NCBI GenBank assembly: GCA_019636795.1
Contig: JAHBWW010000001.1
Span: 558,001-622,000 of the forward strand
Origin: Phycisphaeraceae bacterium
Lineage (GTDB): Bacteria; Planctomycetota; Phycisphaerae; Phycisphaerales; UBA1924
DNA length: 64,000 nt
Direction of reading: 5' to 3'
Below the pieces are notes generated by a model that did not search any database, was not told where the DNA came from, and saw only the letters and a list, made by a program, of their open reading frames with translations. Both the position numbers and the translations under genes were made by a program. This document shows positions 28,357 through 34,198 of this stretch, one piece after another; within the stretch, counting starts at the first letter, position 1; each line of letters opens with the position of its first letter.

Positions 28357-28446
28357 CGCGCCTTGAGCCCTCAGCGCGGCAATAATCGCTCCTGTTCTGC
28401 GGTGCGGCGGTCCGGTTCGCCTCACCGCCCCACACCCACAGGGGGA

Positions 28447-28519
28447 GGGGCGCTAACTCAATTGGTAGAGTGCCAGCTTTGCAAGCTGGAAGTTAGGGGT
28501 TCGAGTCCCCTGCGCTCCA
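28447..28519 (+). tRNA. tRNA-Ala (TGC anticodon)
   Basis: This is a complete 73-base cloverleaf. The acceptor stem GGGGCGC/GCGCTCC carries the G3-U70 wobble pair that identifies tRNA-Ala. The anticodon arm CCAGC-TTTGCAA-GCTGG gives anticodon TGC, and the T-arm contains GGTTCGAGTCC. The 3' CCA is not encoded. Confidence 0.97.
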
Positions 28520-28734
28520 TTGCCTCATGCGATCGACGCCAATGCCGCTCATGCTGCTCGGGTTGTGCCTGTGGACGACTGATAACCACTTCCTGGCCAA
28601 GATCGAGCAAAAATCTTGAGTTGTGGAGACAAATCCTTGGCGTCCCGAGGCTTGGGAGTTTAAACTCGCGTTGCCCGGCCTTGGGTAATTATCGCTCAAG
28701 GTCTGCAAAATTCCAGGCAGAGGGAGAAGAAGAG

Positions 28735-29769
28735 ATGAAGCACTTTCTGTTGATTGCGGCTGTTGGTGTGTGCTCTGGCGGTGCGTTCGGCCAAACGATC
28801 GATCCGTACTACAACTGCGCCTACACCTATTCGAGTCTGGGCTTGGTTCCTGGTGTCCCGGCAAATTTCGGCGGCTTGGTGTTCAAGCACGATGATCCGA
28901 ACACCCTGCTCATTGGCGGAGCGGCAAATCAGGCTGGGGCGAACATTTATGCAGTGCAAGTGGTGCGCGACGCTGAGAACCAGATCACCGGCTGGGGTGG
29001 GACGGCGACAGTCTTTGCATCCGCTCCGAACATCGACGGAGGCCTGTGCTATGGGCCCGATGATGTGCTGTTCTTCTCACGATACAGCATGAACGCCCTG
29101 GGGCAGATCAAGCCCGGGTCGGTCGCTCCCGACCGCAACATCGATTTGACGCCGCTGGGCTTTACGAGTTCAGTCGGAGCGTTGATGGTTGTGCCGCAGG
29201 GTTTCCCCGGTGCGGGGCGGTTGAAAGTGCTTCCATACAACTCGGGCAGGTGGCATGATGCAGTGTTGACGCCCGATGGCAATGGGACTTTTGACGTCTC
29301 AGCCCCGCTGACGGATTACTTTCTTGGCGGGGGACCTGAGGGAATTGTGTATGTCGAGGCCGGTGCTTCGCTGTTTCCGTTTGCCAGCGTGCTCATCAGC
29401 GAGTACAGCAGTGGCTTGGTCGTGTCCTATGAGGTCGACAGCAATGGCGACCCGATCGCGGCGACGCGGCGTGTGTTCATCAGTGGGTTGAGCGGAGCCG
29501 AGGGCGGAACGCGCGATCCCCTGACCGGCGACTTTCTGTTCTCGACCTTTGGCGGTGCCAGCGGCGTAATCGTGGTACGAGGGTTCACGCCCGACTGCGA
29601 TGTGCCTGCCAACATCAACCGCGATTGTGCGCTCGACTTCTTCGATGTGCAGTTGTTCCTGTCTTCGTTCGCGGCTGGCGATCTGCTGGCCGACTTTGTT
29701 CCAGACGGAGTGCTCAACTTTTTTGATGTCCAGGCATTCCTCACAAGTTTTTCAGGGGGTTGCAACTGA
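28735..29769 (+). CDS. Exported protein with GC-type dockerin-like C-terminus
   Basis: The product is about 344 residues. The ATG at 28735 follows AGGGAGAAGAAG and gives a short signal peptide (KHFLLIAAVGVCSGGAFG). The frame extends upstream through tRNA-Ala, which is not credible as coding. The body has beta-propeller-like strands with recurrent 'DGNGTF', 'GGLCYGPDDVLFF' and 'GGPEGIVYV' segments but no known catalytic motif. The C-terminal 60 residues carry two dockerin-like repeats, each with a DFFDVQ or NFFDVQ core, and the protein ends FSGGCN. This tail matches a surface-anchoring type that I associate with Phycisphaerae. Cargo function is unknown. Confidence 0.75.
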   Translation: MKHFLLIAAVGVCSGGAFGQTIDPYYNCAYTYSSLGLVPGVPANFGGLVFKHDDPNTLLIGGAANQAGANIYAVQVVRDAENQITGWGGTATVFASAPNIDGGLCYGPDDVLFFSRYSMNALGQIKPGSVAPDRNIDLTPLGFTSSVGALMVVPQGFPGAGRLKVLPYNSGRWHDAVLTPDGNGTFDVSAPLTDYFLGGGPEGIVYVEAGASLFPFASVLISEYSSGLVVSYEVDSNGDPIAATRRVFISGLSGAEGGTRDPLTGDFLFSTFGGASGVIVVRGFTPDCDVPANINRDCALDFFDVQLFLSSFAAGDLLADFVPDGVLNFFDVQAFLTSFSGGCN

Positions 29770-29839: not shown

Positions 29840-30032
29840 TTGACTTCTGCTGCTGGCGAAGATTTTGTACAGGCACCATGCTCGCAAAGTTCCATAAAAG
29901 CAAATCCGAAAAACCGGCAGGCGCTTTCGGGCGTCCGGGTCTTGGTGCGGGTTGCTGCGGAACGCGTTGAGCCAGATCAACGATTCAGGCAGACCAGTTC
30001 AAGCCCTCGGACGCGTGTCCGGGGGCTTTTTT
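29840..30032 (+). promoter_or_regulatory. Candidate attenuator leader of the lysW operon
   Basis: The 313 bases between the dockerin protein and lysW hold a leader-like arrangement. TTGACT (29840-29845) is a good -35 box with only a weak -10 about 17 bases later. A 30-codon ORF follows (29878-29970, starting MLAKFHKSKSEKP) with four Lys codons in its first twelve. An intrinsic terminator is at 30002-30032. The bases GTCCGGG at 29933-29939 nearly copy the terminator's 3' arm and can pair with its 5' arm (about 30006-30012), which would give an alternative antiterminator. The ORF has only a weak AGG upstream. This is an inference from layout; an independent small RNA is the main alternative. 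Confidence 0.45.
30002..30032 (+). terminator. Intrinsic terminator upstream of lysW
   Basis: An 11-base stem with one G-T pair (30002-30012 with 30017-30027), loop GCGT, is followed by six T. It ends 50 bases before the lysW ATG, so it either closes a small upstream transcript or works as the attenuator described for this leader. Confidence 0.85.
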
Positions 30033-30082: not shown

Positions 30083-30265
30083 ATGGGTCAAGCGGTTGTC
30101 TCCACAAGTTGTCCAGAGTGTGATGGAGAGGTCACGTTCAGTCGCGCCCCGCTTGCCGGGCAGGTCACGACGTGCAGCCAGTGTGGCGTCGAACTTGAGG
30201 TGACGAGCGTCGAGCCTCTGAAGCTGGAAGTCGCGCCCGAAGTCGAAGAAGACTGGGGCGAGTGA
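30083..30265 (+). CDS. lysW: Amino-group carrier protein LysW
   Basis: The product is a 60-residue acidic protein. The N-terminal half is a zinc ribbon with Cys pairs in CPEC and CSQC. The C-terminus is the diagnostic EEDWGE, whose terminal Glu gamma-carboxylate is the attachment site for the amino group of the substrate. LysW protects and carries 2-aminoadipate (lysine route) or glutamate (arginine/ornithine route) through later steps. AAGGAG lies upstream of the ATG. The gene heads lysW-lysX-lysY-lysZ-lysK, all on the same strand within 4.1 kb. Confidence 0.95.
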   Translation: MGQAVVSTSCPECDGEVTFSRAPLAGQVTTCSQCGVELEVTSVEPLKLEVAPEVEEDWGE

Positions 30266-30299: not shown

Positions 30300-31172
30300 A
30301 TGAAGATTGCTCTTGGATACACAAGGCTTCGGGTCGAGGAGCGTCTGCTGCTCGATGCATTCGAAGCCATTGGAGTCGAGGTGACTCCGATCGACCTTCG
30401 GACAGTGGTGTTCGCGCCGCCGGCGCTCGGCCGATTTGCCGAGTTCGACGCCTTTGTCGATCGGTCGGTGAGTCTGACGACATCGCTCACGACAGTGCGC
30501 GTGCTCGAATCGATGGGCGTGCGGTGCATCAACCGCGGCGACGCGATCGAGGTGTGTTCGGACAAGATGCGCACCACGCTTGCCTTGCATGTCGCGGGCG
30601 TGCCGACGCCGGAGATTCGCGTTGCGTCGTCGCCCGAAGCGGCGCTCGAAGCAATCGAATCACTCGGCTACCCGTGCGTGCTCAAGCCCACGGTGGGTTC
30701 GTGGGGAAGGCTGGTCGCGCGGGTCAACGATCGCGATTCAGCCGAGGCCATCGTCGAACATCGCGACACGCTCGGCTCGGTCAATCACAGCGTCTACTAC
30801 GTGCAGGAGTTCATCGACAAGCCCGGACGCGATCTGCGTGTGTTTGTCGTGGGCGGACAGACAATCGCTGCGATTGTGCGTTCGAGCGGGCATTGGGTGA
30901 CCAACACGGCGCGTGGAGCAGTCGCGTCGAAGTTCGAACTCACGCCCGAGATTCGCGCGATGTGCGAGGCTTCGGCGGCGGCGGTCGGAGCCGACGTCGC
31001 TGCGGTCGATGTGCTCGAGTGCCCGAAGCGCGGGCCACTGATCAATGAACTCAATCACTCGATGGAGTTTCGCAACAGCATCGACACGACGGGGATCGAC
31101 ATTCCACGCAAGGTTGCTGAGCATGTCGTGCGCATCATCGAGGCAGCCCGACCCGCGGGGGTGCCAGCGTGA
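30300..31172 (+). CDS. lysX: LysW ligase LysX (ATP-grasp)
   Basis: The product is a 290-residue ATP-grasp ligase that joins the alpha-amino group of 2-aminoadipate (or glutamate, if ArgX-like) to the C-terminal Glu of LysW. It opens MKIALGYTRLRVEE. ATP-grasp features include YPCVLKPTVGSWGR, VQEFIDKPGRDLRVFVVGG and the metal-binding INELNHSMEFRNS near the C-terminus. The NHSMEF...TTGIDIP stretch looks to me more like the Thermus LysX than ArgX, but that is from memory and is not decisive. GGAG lies 8 bases before the chosen ATG (30300). It overlaps the next gene by 4 bases. Confidence 0.92.
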   Translation: MKIALGYTRLRVEERLLLDAFEAIGVEVTPIDLRTVVFAPPALGRFAEFDAFVDRSVSLTTSLTTVRVLESMGVRCINRGDAIEVCSDKMRTTLALHVAGVPTPEIRVASSPEAALEAIESLGYPCVLKPTVGSWGRLVARVNDRDSAEAIVEHRDTLGSVNHSVYYVQEFIDKPGRDLRVFVVGGQTIAAIVRSSGHWVTNTARGAVASKFELTPEIRAMCEASAAAVGADVAAVDVLECPKRGPLINELNHSMEFRNSIDTTGIDIPRKVAEHVVRIIEAARPAGVPA

Positions 31173-32197
31173 GTCTGCGGGCCTCCATCGTCGGCGCGAG
31201 CGGGTATACAGGCGGCGAGATCATGCGTCTGTTGACGATGCACCCGGAGGTCGAAATCGGGCAGATCACGTCGCGCTCGCTCGCCGACAAGCCTGTGCAT
31301 GTGGTTCACCCGCACCTGCGGGGGCATATGCGCCAGAGTTTCTCGCTCGAAGCGGATCTGGAGCCATGCGATGTGTTGTTCCTGTGCCTGCCTCACGGCG
31401 TGGCGGCAGGCGCAATCGAACGCTATCGCGCAATGGCTCGCATTGTCGTCGATCTGTCGTCCGACTTTCGCCTGCGCGATGCCAAGGCGTATGAACACTG
31501 GTACGGCCAGGCGCACACAAAGCCAGAGATGCTTGCCGAGGCTGTCTATGGCCTGCCGGAGTTGTCGCGTGCCGCGCTCCCGGGCGCGACGCTCATCAGT
31601 GGGGTCGGCTGCAATGCCACCGCTATGAATCTCGCACTCCTGCCGTTGGCGCGTGCCGGGCTTATCGAGCGCGCGATCGCGGATGTCAAGGTTGGTTCGT
31701 CCGAAGCCGGCGCCGAACCGGGCCCAGGCTCTCACCATCCGACCCGCTCGCGCGCCGTACGCACATACAGCCCATCCGGCCATCGCCATCTGGCCGAAGT
31801 TCAGCAGGCACTCGGCCCGATCGACATCGACGCGACGATCACCGCCATCGAAATGGTGCGCGGCGTGCTTGCAACGATACACGTTCTGCCGACACGCAAG
31901 GTCGAGCAGAAGGAACTCTGGAGCCTCTATCGCGAGGCGTACGCGAAGGAGCCTTTCGTTCGCATCGTCAGCGATCGCACGGGGGCATTCCGTCTGCCGG
32001 ACCCGAAGATTCTCGCAGGGTGTAACGATGCGGATGTCGGGTTTGCCATTGACGAGGGGTCTGGACGCATCATCGCCTTGTGCGCCATTGACAATCTGAT
32101 GAAGGGCGCAGCGGGTTCGGCGGTGCAGGCTATGAACGTGGCGCTCGGGCTTGATGAATCGCTCGGGCTTGGCGCGCCAGGCGTGCATCCCGTCTGA
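31169..32197 (+). CDS. lysY: LysW-aminoadipyl-phosphate reductase (LysY/ArgC family)
   Basis: The product is a 342-residue NAD(P)-dependent reductase homologous to ArgC. It reduces the LysW-bound acyl phosphate to the semialdehyde. The Rossmann motif is VGASGYTGGE (about residues 8-17), the catalytic Cys is in GVGCNATAMNLAL (about residue 149) and the catalytic His is in the PSGHRHLAEV region. A distinctive SSEAGAEPGPGSHHPTRS segment resembles the LysY branch. It starts at GTG with the lysX stop codon inside the overlap GTGA, which indicates translational coupling. Confidence 0.9.
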   Translation: MSLRASIVGASGYTGGEIMRLLTMHPEVEIGQITSRSLADKPVHVVHPHLRGHMRQSFSLEADLEPCDVLFLCLPHGVAAGAIERYRAMARIVVDLSSDFRLRDAKAYEHWYGQAHTKPEMLAEAVYGLPELSRAALPGATLISGVGCNATAMNLALLPLARAGLIERAIADVKVGSSEAGAEPGPGSHHPTRSRAVRTYSPSGHRHLAEVQQALGPIDIDATITAIEMVRGVLATIHVLPTRKVEQKELWSLYREAYAKEPFVRIVSDRTGAFRLPDPKILAGCNDADVGFAIDEGSGRIIALCAIDNLMKGAAGSAVQAMNVALGLDESLGLGAPGVHPV

Positions 32198-32222
32198 TCG
32201 CGAGAGGTCTGGAGAAAGCGAA

Positions 32223-33059
32223 ATGACAGTTTCACAAACACGCACAGTGGTCATCAAGGTCGGCGGAGGAGAAGGCATCGATCTCGGCGCGTTCGCCGAT
32301 CAGTTCGCAGCACTCGTTCGTTCCGGCGTTCGGGCCGTACTGGTTCATGGCGGCTCGCACGAGACCAACGTACTGTCCGAAAAGCTGGGCCATCCACCAC
32401 GCACCATCACCAGTCCATCAGGGCATACCAGCCGGAGGACCGATCGAGCAACGCTCGAAATCTTCGAGATGGTCTACTGCGGCAAGGTCAACAAGGGCAT
32501 CGTGGAGCAACTTCGCGCCAAAGGCATCGATGCAATCGGGCTCTCGGGCATCGACGGCGGGCTGTGGACCGGTGAACGCAAGACGGCGATTCGCGCGGTC
32601 GAAGACGGCGCGACCGTTATCATTCGCGACGATCTTTCGGGGCGTGTGACGTCGGTCGATGCGGCATTGCTCGATCTGCTTCTTGGCGCTGGACGCACTC
32701 CGGTGCTGACTCCGCCAGCCGTAACTGCCGATGGCGTGGCGATCAACGTCGATGCCGATCGCGCAGCCGCACTGACCGCGGTCGCGCTGCGGGCCGACGA
32801 ACTGCTGCTGCTGTCCAACGTGCCCGGTGTGCTGCGTGATCCGGCCGATCGTTCGAGCCTGATCGTGTCGACTGCCGAGGCCGGTCTTGACGCTGTGCGC
32901 GAAGCCGCCAAGGGACGCATGAAGAACAAAGTGCTCGCAGCCGAGGAAGCAACCGAGGGCGGAGTGGCCCGTGTGGTCATCGGGTGCGCCAACGGCCCCA
33001 CCGCGCTGGCCGACGCACTGGCCGGTCGAGGCACTCTCTTTGAAGGAGTTCGCGCGTGA
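32223..33059 (+). CDS. lysZ: LysW-aminoadipate kinase (LysZ/ArgB family)
   Basis: The product is a 278-residue amino acid kinase homologous to acetylglutamate kinase. It phosphorylates the side-chain carboxylate of the LysW-bound substrate. The nucleotide-binding VIKVGGG opens the protein, with VHGGSHETN and the substrate-binding SPSGHTSRRTDRATLEIF segment, which matches the LysZ branch. Further family regions are INVDADRAAALTAVAL and LLLLSNVPGVL. I chose the ATG at 32223, with GGAG upstream; the frame extends further into lysY without support. It overlaps lysK by 4 bases. Confidence 0.92.
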   Translation: MTVSQTRTVVIKVGGGEGIDLGAFADQFAALVRSGVRAVLVHGGSHETNVLSEKLGHPPRTITSPSGHTSRRTDRATLEIFEMVYCGKVNKGIVEQLRAKGIDAIGLSGIDGGLWTGERKTAIRAVEDGATVIIRDDLSGRVTSVDAALLDLLLGAGRTPVLTPPAVTADGVAINVDADRAAALTAVALRADELLLLSNVPGVLRDPADRSSLIVSTAEAGLDAVREAAKGRMKNKVLAAEEATEGGVARVVIGCANGPTALADALAGRGTLFEGVRA

Positions 33060-34198
33060 TTCCCGACGACGCAACACTCGATCTGCTTGGTTTGCCACCC
33101 AACGACCGCCGCGCAGTCGAGATTCTGTATGACCTTGTCTCCACACCCAGCGTGTCTGACCATGAAGGGCCAGCGGTTTCGCGCTTCATTCAGGCTGCTC
33201 GGTCGCTCGATCTGGAGTTTGAGATCGACGAAGCGGGTAATGGCGTCGCGCGCCGGCGCGCTGTCACCAAGTCACGCGTGCAGATTGTTCTGCTTGGTCA
33301 CATCGATACAGTCCCAGGCCATATTCCCGTTCGCATCGAGAACCGCGAACTCTGGGGCCGCGGCTCGGTCGATGCCAAAGGTCCGCTCGCCGCGATGCTC
33401 CTGGCCGGTGCGCAGGCATCAATCCCCGATGACACAGAATTGCTCGTTGTCGCAGCCGTGGGGGAGGAAACGACCGCCTCGCTCGGCGCACGCCACCTGA
33501 CGCGAGAGTTGAGCCCGTCGGCGTGCATCATCGGTGAACCCAGCGGATGGGATGGCGTCACACTCGGGTATAAAGGCCGCGTGCTTGTCGAGGCGGCCTC
33601 GCGCCGACCGAGCGCACACAGCGGAGGGCCAACCGGCTCGCCACCCGACGTTCTCTTTGCGTGGTGGCAGCGCGTGCTCGATCATGCTGCGAGGCTCAGT
33701 GCGGGCGCGACTCGAGACTTTGACCGCCTGCAATGTACAATTCTCGATATGACCTCATCATCGGATGGCCTCGAAGATGTCGCGTCGATCCGCGCCGGGT
33801 TCAGGCTTCCCCCGAGTGTCGTGCCCGCGCAGTTGCAGGCCGATCTCTTCGATATCGCGGGCGATGAGGTCTCCCTGACTTGCGCTGGCCGCGAGTCGGC
33901 GTATGCCACCGATCGAAATGACCCGGTCGTGCGTGCCCTCTCGGGCGCGATCCGCGCCAGCGGCGCAACTCCCAGGCCCAAACTTAAGACGGGTACCGCC
34001 GACCTCAACATCGTCGCGCCAGTCTGGCAATGCCCGATCGCGGCCTACGGCCCGGGAGATTCCGGCCTCGATCACACACCGCACGAACGGCTCAACATCG
34101 ACGAGTTCCTCCGCTCCGTCCGCGTTCTCCAGACAGCACTCGCGACGCTCGCAGCCGAACTCAGTGCCTCAGGAGTCAAACCTGCAACAGTGTCCTGA
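33056..34198 (+). CDS. lysK: LysW-lysine/ornithine hydrolase LysK (M20 family)
   Basis: The product is a 380-residue zinc peptidase of the M20 family that releases the finished amino acid from LysW. Metal ligands lie in GHIDTVPG (about residues 80-87) and GRGSVDAKGPLA (about 101-112). VGEETTA holds the catalytic Glu, with IGEPSGWDGVTLGYKGR and KLKTGTADLNIV matching the family. It starts at GTG overlapping the lysZ stop by 4 bases (GTGA) and closes the run. The aminotransferase LysJ, needed between reduction and release, is not in the window and must be encoded elsewhere. Confidence 0.9.
   Translation: MIPDDATLDLLGLPPNDRRAVEILYDLVSTPSVSDHEGPAVSRFIQAARSLDLEFEIDEAGNGVARRRAVTKSRVQIVLLGHIDTVPGHIPVRIENRELWGRGSVDAKGPLAAMLLAGAQASIPDDTELLVVAAVGEETTASLGARHLTRELSPSACIIGEPSGWDGVTLGYKGRVLVEAASRRPSAHSGGPTGSPPDVLFAWWQRVLDHAARLSAGATRDFDRLQCTILDMTSSSDGLEDVASIRAGFRLPPSVVPAQLQADLFDIAGDEVSLTCAGRESAYATDRNDPVVRALSGAIRASGATPRPKLKTGTADLNIVAPVWQCPIAAYGPGDSGLDHTPHERLNIDEFLRSVRVLQTALATLAAELSASGVKPATVS

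Follow-up and report, generated by a model that had tools for sequence, protein, structure and literature searches.

The window, that is, the whole stretch of 64,000 nucleotides from a Phycisphaeraceae bacterium analyzed in the present work, harbors on its + strand the genes lysWXYZK. lysW (30083..30265) codes for a carrier protein of 60 aa (TIGR01206, 62 bits with a cut-off of 53.2), lysX (30300..31172) for an aminoadipate ligase with lysine-type motifs (TIGR02144, 313.8 bits, cut-off 275.6), lysY (31169..32197) for an ArgC-family reductase (TIGR01850 argC, 360.1 bits, cut-off 233.6; named lysY by its position), lysZ (32214..33059) for a [LysW]-aminoadipate kinase (NF010659, 341 bits, cut-off 223), and lysK (33056..34198) for a [LysW]-lysine hydrolase (NF003367, 384.1 bits, cut-off 363). 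The start of lysZ at 32214 is our choice, the open frame extending from 32151. The locus thus possesses all five genes of a LysW-type lysine operon, together with a LysX of the lysine type. Upstream, the gene preceding the leader (28363-29769) ends in a C-terminal pair of repeats (FFDVQLFLSSF and FFDVQAFLTSF), which we take to be dockerin-like. Elsewhere in the same genome, contig C1 carries a LysA-like decarboxylase of 438 aa (L122), which scores far under the LysA cut-off (126.3 versus 297.9 bits).

The region between 29840 and 30032 embeds a short ORF on the + strand (29878..29970; ATG at 29878, TGA at 29968-29970, 30 codons, MLAKFHKSKSEKPAGAFGRPGLGAGCCGTR), whose Lys codons cluster between 29887 and 29913. 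They occupy positions 4 (AAG, 29887-29889), 7, 9, and 12 (AAA at 29896-29898, 29902-29904, and 29911-29913, respectively), and a scripted check of the sequence agreed with the preliminary description on this point. Four further segments follow on the same strand. Segment 1 (GGCGC, 29920..29924) can form five pairs with GCGTC of segment 2 (GGCGTCCGGG, 29930..29939), which nearly repeats the 3' arm of the terminator and is the candidate antiterminator partner. Segment 3 (30001..30014) comprises the terminator 5' arm and the first bases of its loop, and segment 4 (30017..30032) the 3' arm and the T run. The terminator (30001-30028; 12 pairs, a loop of four, and a T-rich tail) is the sole terminator-like site near the leader, 0.7 such sites being expected in shuffles of the region. 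Segment 2 can alternatively pair with CCCTCGGACGC (30004-30014), giving a duplex of -19.1 kcal/mol. The near copy had been placed at 29933-29939 in the preliminary description; the position was right and the extent slightly short, the pairing copy spanning 29930-29939. A scan of both strands of the window retrieved the combination of a four-Lys cluster and a terminator only once, in the 450-base piece starting at 29701 on the + strand.

Promoter-like site scoring pointed to a likely -35 element (TTGACT, 29840..29845, + strand) and a weak -10 element (TTTTGT, 29863..29868, + strand), separated by a 17-base spacer, the latter ending nine bases before the leader ATG; a stricter promoter scan of the leader region retrieved no promoter. 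Among 85 leaders, 68 have TTGAC in their top-scoring promoter-like site, the mean score of such best sites is 10.5 (8.0 in mononucleotide shuffles), and in 47 an in-frame start lies at most 12 bases from the end of the -10 element. From the position of the -10 element, the transcript probably starts a few bases before the ATG, and the leader mRNA would be nearly leaderless, which fits the fact that no Shine-Dalgarno sequence was seen before the leader ORF.

The presence of a similar leader was checked in the genomes of the same family. LysW matches were found in 93 out of 163 genomes; the weak one of G069 (1.2e-4) was dropped, leaving 92, and the addition of G057, a LysW genome from another family of the same order, gave 93 upstream loci in all. 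Four of these (L064, L073, L099, and L105) have less than 400 bases upstream and were left out of the counts, which refer to 89 loci with at least 400 bases (88 family genomes and one sister-family genome). A frame with at least three Lys codons within 14 codons was found at 87 of the 89 loci, versus 13.7% of dinucleotide shuffles and 11% for the reverse strand upstream of lysW; the cluster is missing from L060 and L114 (two Lys each), as well as from L073 and L099 (contig ends). These data reveal that the Lys codons, on the conservation of which the preliminary description had staked its interpretation, are conserved in relatives. Lys is also the residue that departs furthest from shuffles in the leader regions, and Arg codons are not enriched. 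Moreover, the Lys cluster is followed by a terminator located 3' of the stop codon at 77 of the 89 loci; the same combination occurs in 11 out of 912 background windows (drawn from the window and 14 loci), and six of these 11 are leaders described in this study. The leader Lys codons comprise 332 AAA and 19 AAG, the corresponding figures being 0 and 13 in the lysW genes and 12 and 33 in seven genes of the window.

The alternative pairing was then compared among relatives. The terminator 5' arm pairs with its own leader with a mean energy of -20.9 kcal/mol (87 loci) and with the leaders of other loci with a mean of -17.1 (sd 0.30), the lowest of 5000 permutations reaching -18.3 kcal/mol; hence, self-pairing was better than in all 5000 permutations. 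The set includes 87 out of 94 loci, since L017, L060, L073, L088, L099, L114, and L028 lacked either the Lys cluster or a terminator call; it also includes L090 and L100, for which the wrong frame was called and which are excluded from the sets of 85 leaders. Because the leader and the arm of one genome share their base composition, the leader part was also shuffled; the pairing of the arm gave a mean z of -2.0, with 43 of the 85 leaders below p 0.05. Furthermore, an alignment (A2) of the type-I leaders, with 34 loci retained from 41 candidates after removal of near duplicates and some others, showed eight double-sided pair changes, versus a mean of 1.75 in whole-arm shuffles, none of 1000 of which reached eight; the paired fraction exceeds that of the arm shuffles by little (0.784 versus 0.767, a value reached by 6 out of 1000). 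All five pairs between segments 1 and 2 are possible in 28 of the 34 type-I leaders; this pairing is without support from covariation because the bases of segment 1 hardly vary. On the basis of the permutation test and the compensatory changes, the alternative pairing proposed in the preliminary description is conserved in relatives, and an antiterminator excluding the terminator was found across them.

The preliminary description had also supposed that a ribosome stalled on the early Lys codons would leave the near copy free. Across relatives, masking the leader through the last Lys codon raised the arm-leader pairing from 0.44 to 0.60 (49 leaders up and five down, out of 85). In the window itself, the outcome flips with the footprint assumed for the ribosome. 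Equilibrium folds favor the antiterminator in three combinations only (stall at codon 9 with a footprint of 15, stall at codon 12 with one of 9 or 12), and the terminator persists when the ribosome is placed at codon 4 or 7; with bases 29900-29925 masked, as had been suggested, the terminator was still favored at equilibrium. The minimum free energy of the leader of the window has a z of -1.23, the fold being as stable or more so in 25 out of 200 shuffles.

We estimate at roughly 0.88 the probability that lysWXYZK is preceded here by a transcription attenuator of the ribosome-mediated type, responding to lysine. This reading draws on the observed anatomy and conservation of the attenuator, its co-variation, the lysine-type enzymes, and the gene context. 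The stall, the direction, and the signal are what we infer from them, and the attenuator probably switches the lysine genes on when lysine is short. According to this scheme, transcription would begin just 5' of the leader ATG. When charged tRNA-Lys is sufficient, the ribosome would pass the Lys codons, and segment 2 would be either covered or paired again with segment 1; with ample lysine, the terminator (30001-30028) would form and lysWXYZK would remain untranscribed. When lysine is scarce, the ribosome would stall on the Lys codons, covering segment 1 and freeing segment 2 (29930-29939), which could then pair with the terminator 5' arm, allowing RNA polymerase to continue into lysWXYZK. Since the leader stop codon lies 28 bases 3' of segment 2, the off state would need either the renewed pairing of segments 1 and 2 or a faster formation of the terminator. 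Within the family, the same device would also stand before further lysine genes, among them a citrate-synthase-family gene of the same genome, a possible source of homocitrate.

Lysine is the likely product of lysWXYZK, and the inference of the preliminary description that the operon makes lysine gains support from several sides. The LysX sequence of the window carries the motifs HWVTNTARG and NHSMEFRNS, which, or near forms of which, are common to 1uc8 and 3vpd and not to 3vpb; we take the former two to be Thermus LysX and the latter Sulfolobus ArgX. The signature NxxxEF[RK]N was read in all 87 LysX loci matching a loose pattern for the region (87 out of 108 loci, the remaining 21 being incomplete or unmatched). 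LysZ exceeds the cut-off for a [LysW]-aminoadipate kinase; it also matches 3wwm and 3u6u with 256-258 bits, the other matches, acetylglutamate kinases and their like, not going beyond 91. Moreover, aminoadipate-pathway genes lie behind the same leader in relatives, and the genome of the window possesses a homoaconitase and a candidate condensing enzyme with a lysine leader of its own. Archaeal LysW systems that serve both lysine and arginine are known, and one might suppose that this operon, too, is devoted to ornithine/arginine or to both amino acids, with lysine control being secondary; the genome of the window lacks an ArgJ match and a LeuA-type homocitrate synthase and harbors an argininosuccinate synthase. 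The LysX motifs, the homoaconitase over its cut-off, and the Arg codons of the leaders, which do not exceed shuffles, speak against this possibility and render it unlikely.

It could also be that the attenuator is decaying in this one genome and that its terminator now merely lowers expression. The leader-arm pairing of the window does not clearly stand out from shuffles (p = 0.17), 43 leader-model matches outscore its 70.7 bits, and the -10 element is weak; nevertheless, the four Lys codons, the strong terminator, and an antiterminator of 7+3 bp are all intact, and the same genome contains a second lysine leader, so that we consider the decay quite improbable.

A conserved lysine-rich microprotein, with the terminator marking the end of its small gene, would account for the core KAKDAxSVR, which is alike in many relatives. 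It would not account for the bases that follow the Lys codons, which remain constant even though they are read in different frames: L002, L003, and L006 each read segment 2 in a frame of their own, and the near copy appears as GGG CGT CCG in the window, as GCG TCC GGG in L006, and as AGC GTC CGG in L003 as well as in many others. The bases of the RNA, and not the residues of a peptide, are therefore conserved. This, together with the excess of Lys over shuffles, which no other residue equals, and the co-variation of terminator arm and leader, makes a microprotein very unlikely.

Lastly, a lysine riboswitch or a T-box, which control lysine genes elsewhere and would not need translation, is extremely improbable here, given that an Rfam search of the leader region and 20 loci retrieved neither a lysine riboswitch (L box) aptamer nor a T-box specifier loop/T-box sequence over the gathering score, the sole match above it in the 20 loci being one tRNA and the four weak matches in the leader region being unrelated and far below their gathering scores.

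As regards the distribution of the lysine attenuator beyond the family, 16 LysW loci from distant Planctomycetota (L028-L043) were considered, one of which was not parsed. No Lys cluster was found upstream of lysW in 13 of the 15 readable loci; in L032 the cluster lies in an apparently longer gene, and in L028/L137 (G359) a leader with six Lys codons spans -150 to -51 of lysW with no terminator call, perhaps controlling translation. In L033 and L036, lysW is located behind an HICDH-like gene, and therefore no leader is expected there. A leader with two Lys codons was seen in L030 (G316), at about -300 to -160 of lysW; by eye, its sequence CCCTCGGGTCC is fully complementary to GGACCCGAGGG of the hairpin that follows.

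A sample from other phyla embedded 25 loci not already sampled, taken from the best 80 of 467 LysW matches in named genomes (by label including 19 Chloroflexota, two Acetothermia, one Thermoanaerobaculia, one other Planctomycetota, and one Proteobacteria). Of the 25 loci drawn from these best 80 of 467, 20 (18 Chloroflexota, one Thermoanaerobaculia, and one Planctomycetota) have a four-Lys leader with a terminator behind it, a combination that none of 500 shuffles showed. Six Chloroflexota loci (L198, L204, L205, L217, L223, and L224) harbor tandem lysine leaders, each with its terminator, before one lysW. L220 has a three-Lys leader, and no lysine leader was found upstream of lysW in L208, L213, L214, and L219; in the last, a lysX-like end lies upstream of lysW, and a three-Lys frame within the preceding gene was not counted. 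The Cyanobacteria label of L157 (RHKP01000028.1) looks wrong, its place being the same as that of G033:C31 of the family of the window. Lys-rich leaders with a terminator-like hairpin were also seen in L268, L269, and L270 (G155, G164, and G173), before genes without an evident link to lysine; those of L268 and L269 include MTLKQFKSKQSKGI.

The first step of the pathway requires separate consideration. An HMGL-family protein (236-260 bits, open frames of 388-532 aa) is present in 19 family genomes, in addition to a fragment in G066 and a LeuA-like protein in G025. L124, the one among the 19 compared with the homocitrate synthase model, scores over its cut-off (473.2 versus 413.6 bits), and all 19 genomes possess LysW (hypergeometric 8e-6). 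The gene (hcs) comes after lysK in G081; in G112, lysK is followed by homoaconitase-like and HICDH-like genes and then by hcs. In G100, G099, and G102, a separate homoaconitase-HICDH-hcs cluster is preceded by a lysine leader of its own, MQ[FI][TL]ASKKGKSKRLKRPAIA, with a terminator (identified by the scan in G100 and G099 and by eye in G102). For the unlinked hcs genes of G096, G097, and G092, no leader was found and no homoaconitase was matched beside hcs, and in G101, G103, and G098, the upstream region ends at the contig end. The genome of the window (97% complete) has no LeuA-type homocitrate synthase (TIGR02146), its sole HMGL-like match being an HMG-CoA lyase with 50 bits to TIGR02146 (cut-off 413.6).

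Away from lysW, the leader covariance model gave strong matches in G104 and G105; among the weaker ones (E above 1e-6), those of G144, G063, G114, and G179 were looked at. The operon behind the leader in G104 and G105, whose family scans used the G105 proteins, embeds a citrate-synthase-family gene, an HD-domain gene (L267:1742-2356), a homoaconitase (662 bits in G105, cut-off 530), an HICDH-like gene, and an MmgE/PrpD gene (L267:5632-7071). The PrpD-like protein of L267 could dehydrate homocitrate. The citrate-synthase-like protein of G105 exceeds the PF00285 cut-off (82.1 versus 27) and falls below those for citryl-CoA lyase (NCBIfam PRK06224 models, best 135.9 versus 245); the best match of the citrate-synthase-like protein among solved structures is the citryl-CoA lyase 6hxp (126 bits). 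Proteins of this kind form a sharp group in 11 family genomes (359-633 bits; the next at most 91), plus G057. The group includes the gene of the window's own genome (G000:C2:530508-531323; L284:1462-2328, 288 aa). His, His, and Asp are invariant in the nine of the 12 proteins that were aligned (A3), at positions that we assume to be those expected for the citrate synthase triad. The candidate shares the sequence family and the His-His-Asp residues of the citryl-CoA lyase/citrate synthase family (PF00285; 6hxp), and differs from it in missing the citryl-CoA lyase cut-offs and in its lysine gene context.

In fact, the gene follows either lysK or a leader and terminator in all 12 genomes (one of these leaders having two Lys). 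It lies directly after lysK in G013, G136, G137, G064, and G057, where the lysK ends were identified by eye and lysW itself was not found in G064. In the remaining seven it is located behind a short leader and a terminator (by eye), with four clustered Lys in G104 and G105, three clustered ones in G179, G079, G033, and the genome of the window, and just two in G153. The second leader of the window's genome (C2, L284:1248-1410, MNMLNMSNFAVKHAKSKRFSTSRELARVLHRRS) precedes the citrate-synthase-like gene, and its antiterminator does not stand out from shuffles (p = 0.15). The same genome harbors on contig C5 a homoaconitase (697 bits, cut-off 530) and an HICDH-like gene that is partial, being at a contig end, and shares 66% identity with that of G105 over 168 aa; it had no NCBIfam match below 1e-30. 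No lysine leader was found before these C5 genes, either in the sequence or with the leader model R1. Between the two lies, by eye, a LuxR-like regulator gene (L274:12128-13003).

Within genus g73, six genomes (G098-G103) possess the LeuA-type enzyme and two (G104 and G105) the citrate-synthase-like one, and the leader precedes all five homoaconitase operons with a visible start (G099, G100, G102, G104, and G105). This swap, together with the leader before the homoaconitase operons, is the reason for reading the citrate-synthase-like protein as a likely second kind of homocitrate synthase; in some genomes its gene also occupies the place of the LeuA-type enzyme behind lysK. No genome is shared between the 19 with hcs and the 11 with the citrate-synthase-like gene, a mutual exclusion that is weak by itself because about 1.3 overlaps are expected. 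As 61 LysW genomes have neither condensing enzyme, the picture is incomplete. Judging from sequence and gene context, we lean slightly toward the view that the lysine attenuator marks a regulon and that the citrate-synthase-family protein is a homocitrate synthase unrelated to the LeuA type.

Ribosome-mediated attenuators of the trp/his type combine codons for the product amino acid in a short leader ORF, a terminator, and a competing upstream pairing. The lysine leader shares these three traits and differs from that type in its amino acid, in its near-leaderless start, and in a stop codon well beyond segment 2. Bacterial lysine genes are usually linked with a riboswitch. In Thermus thermophilus, the lysine cluster (hcs) is reportedly under leader-peptide attenuation, a system that resembles the present case in Lys codons, attenuation, and the LysW pathway. 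The Thermus attenuator precedes hcs, whereas the present one precedes lysW, occurs in Planctomycetota and Chloroflexota, and is found before two operons of one genome. A likeness also exists with SEP5 of Sinorhizobium meliloti, a suggested leader peptide with three Lys codons, which also has six Thr codons and precedes an aspartate dehydrogenase gene, the passages on it giving no RNA structure (PMC10117765). Among the papers listed in a literature search that covered few subscription journals, none, judging from title and opening of the abstract, dealt with the attenuation of LysW operons by a lysine leader.

In this Planctomycetota family and in the Chloroflexota examined (from the best 80 of 467 matches), the LysW pathway seems to be controlled as a rule by codon-reading attenuation, at times with leaders in tandem. 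The attenuator is of a textbook kind, and its breadth is unexpected. As a conserved tag, the leader helps to decide whether an operon is devoted to lysine or to arginine; through it, a candidate for the missing first enzyme has already come to light. If the latter assignment is true, lysine synthesis would have a second, unrelated entry enzyme.
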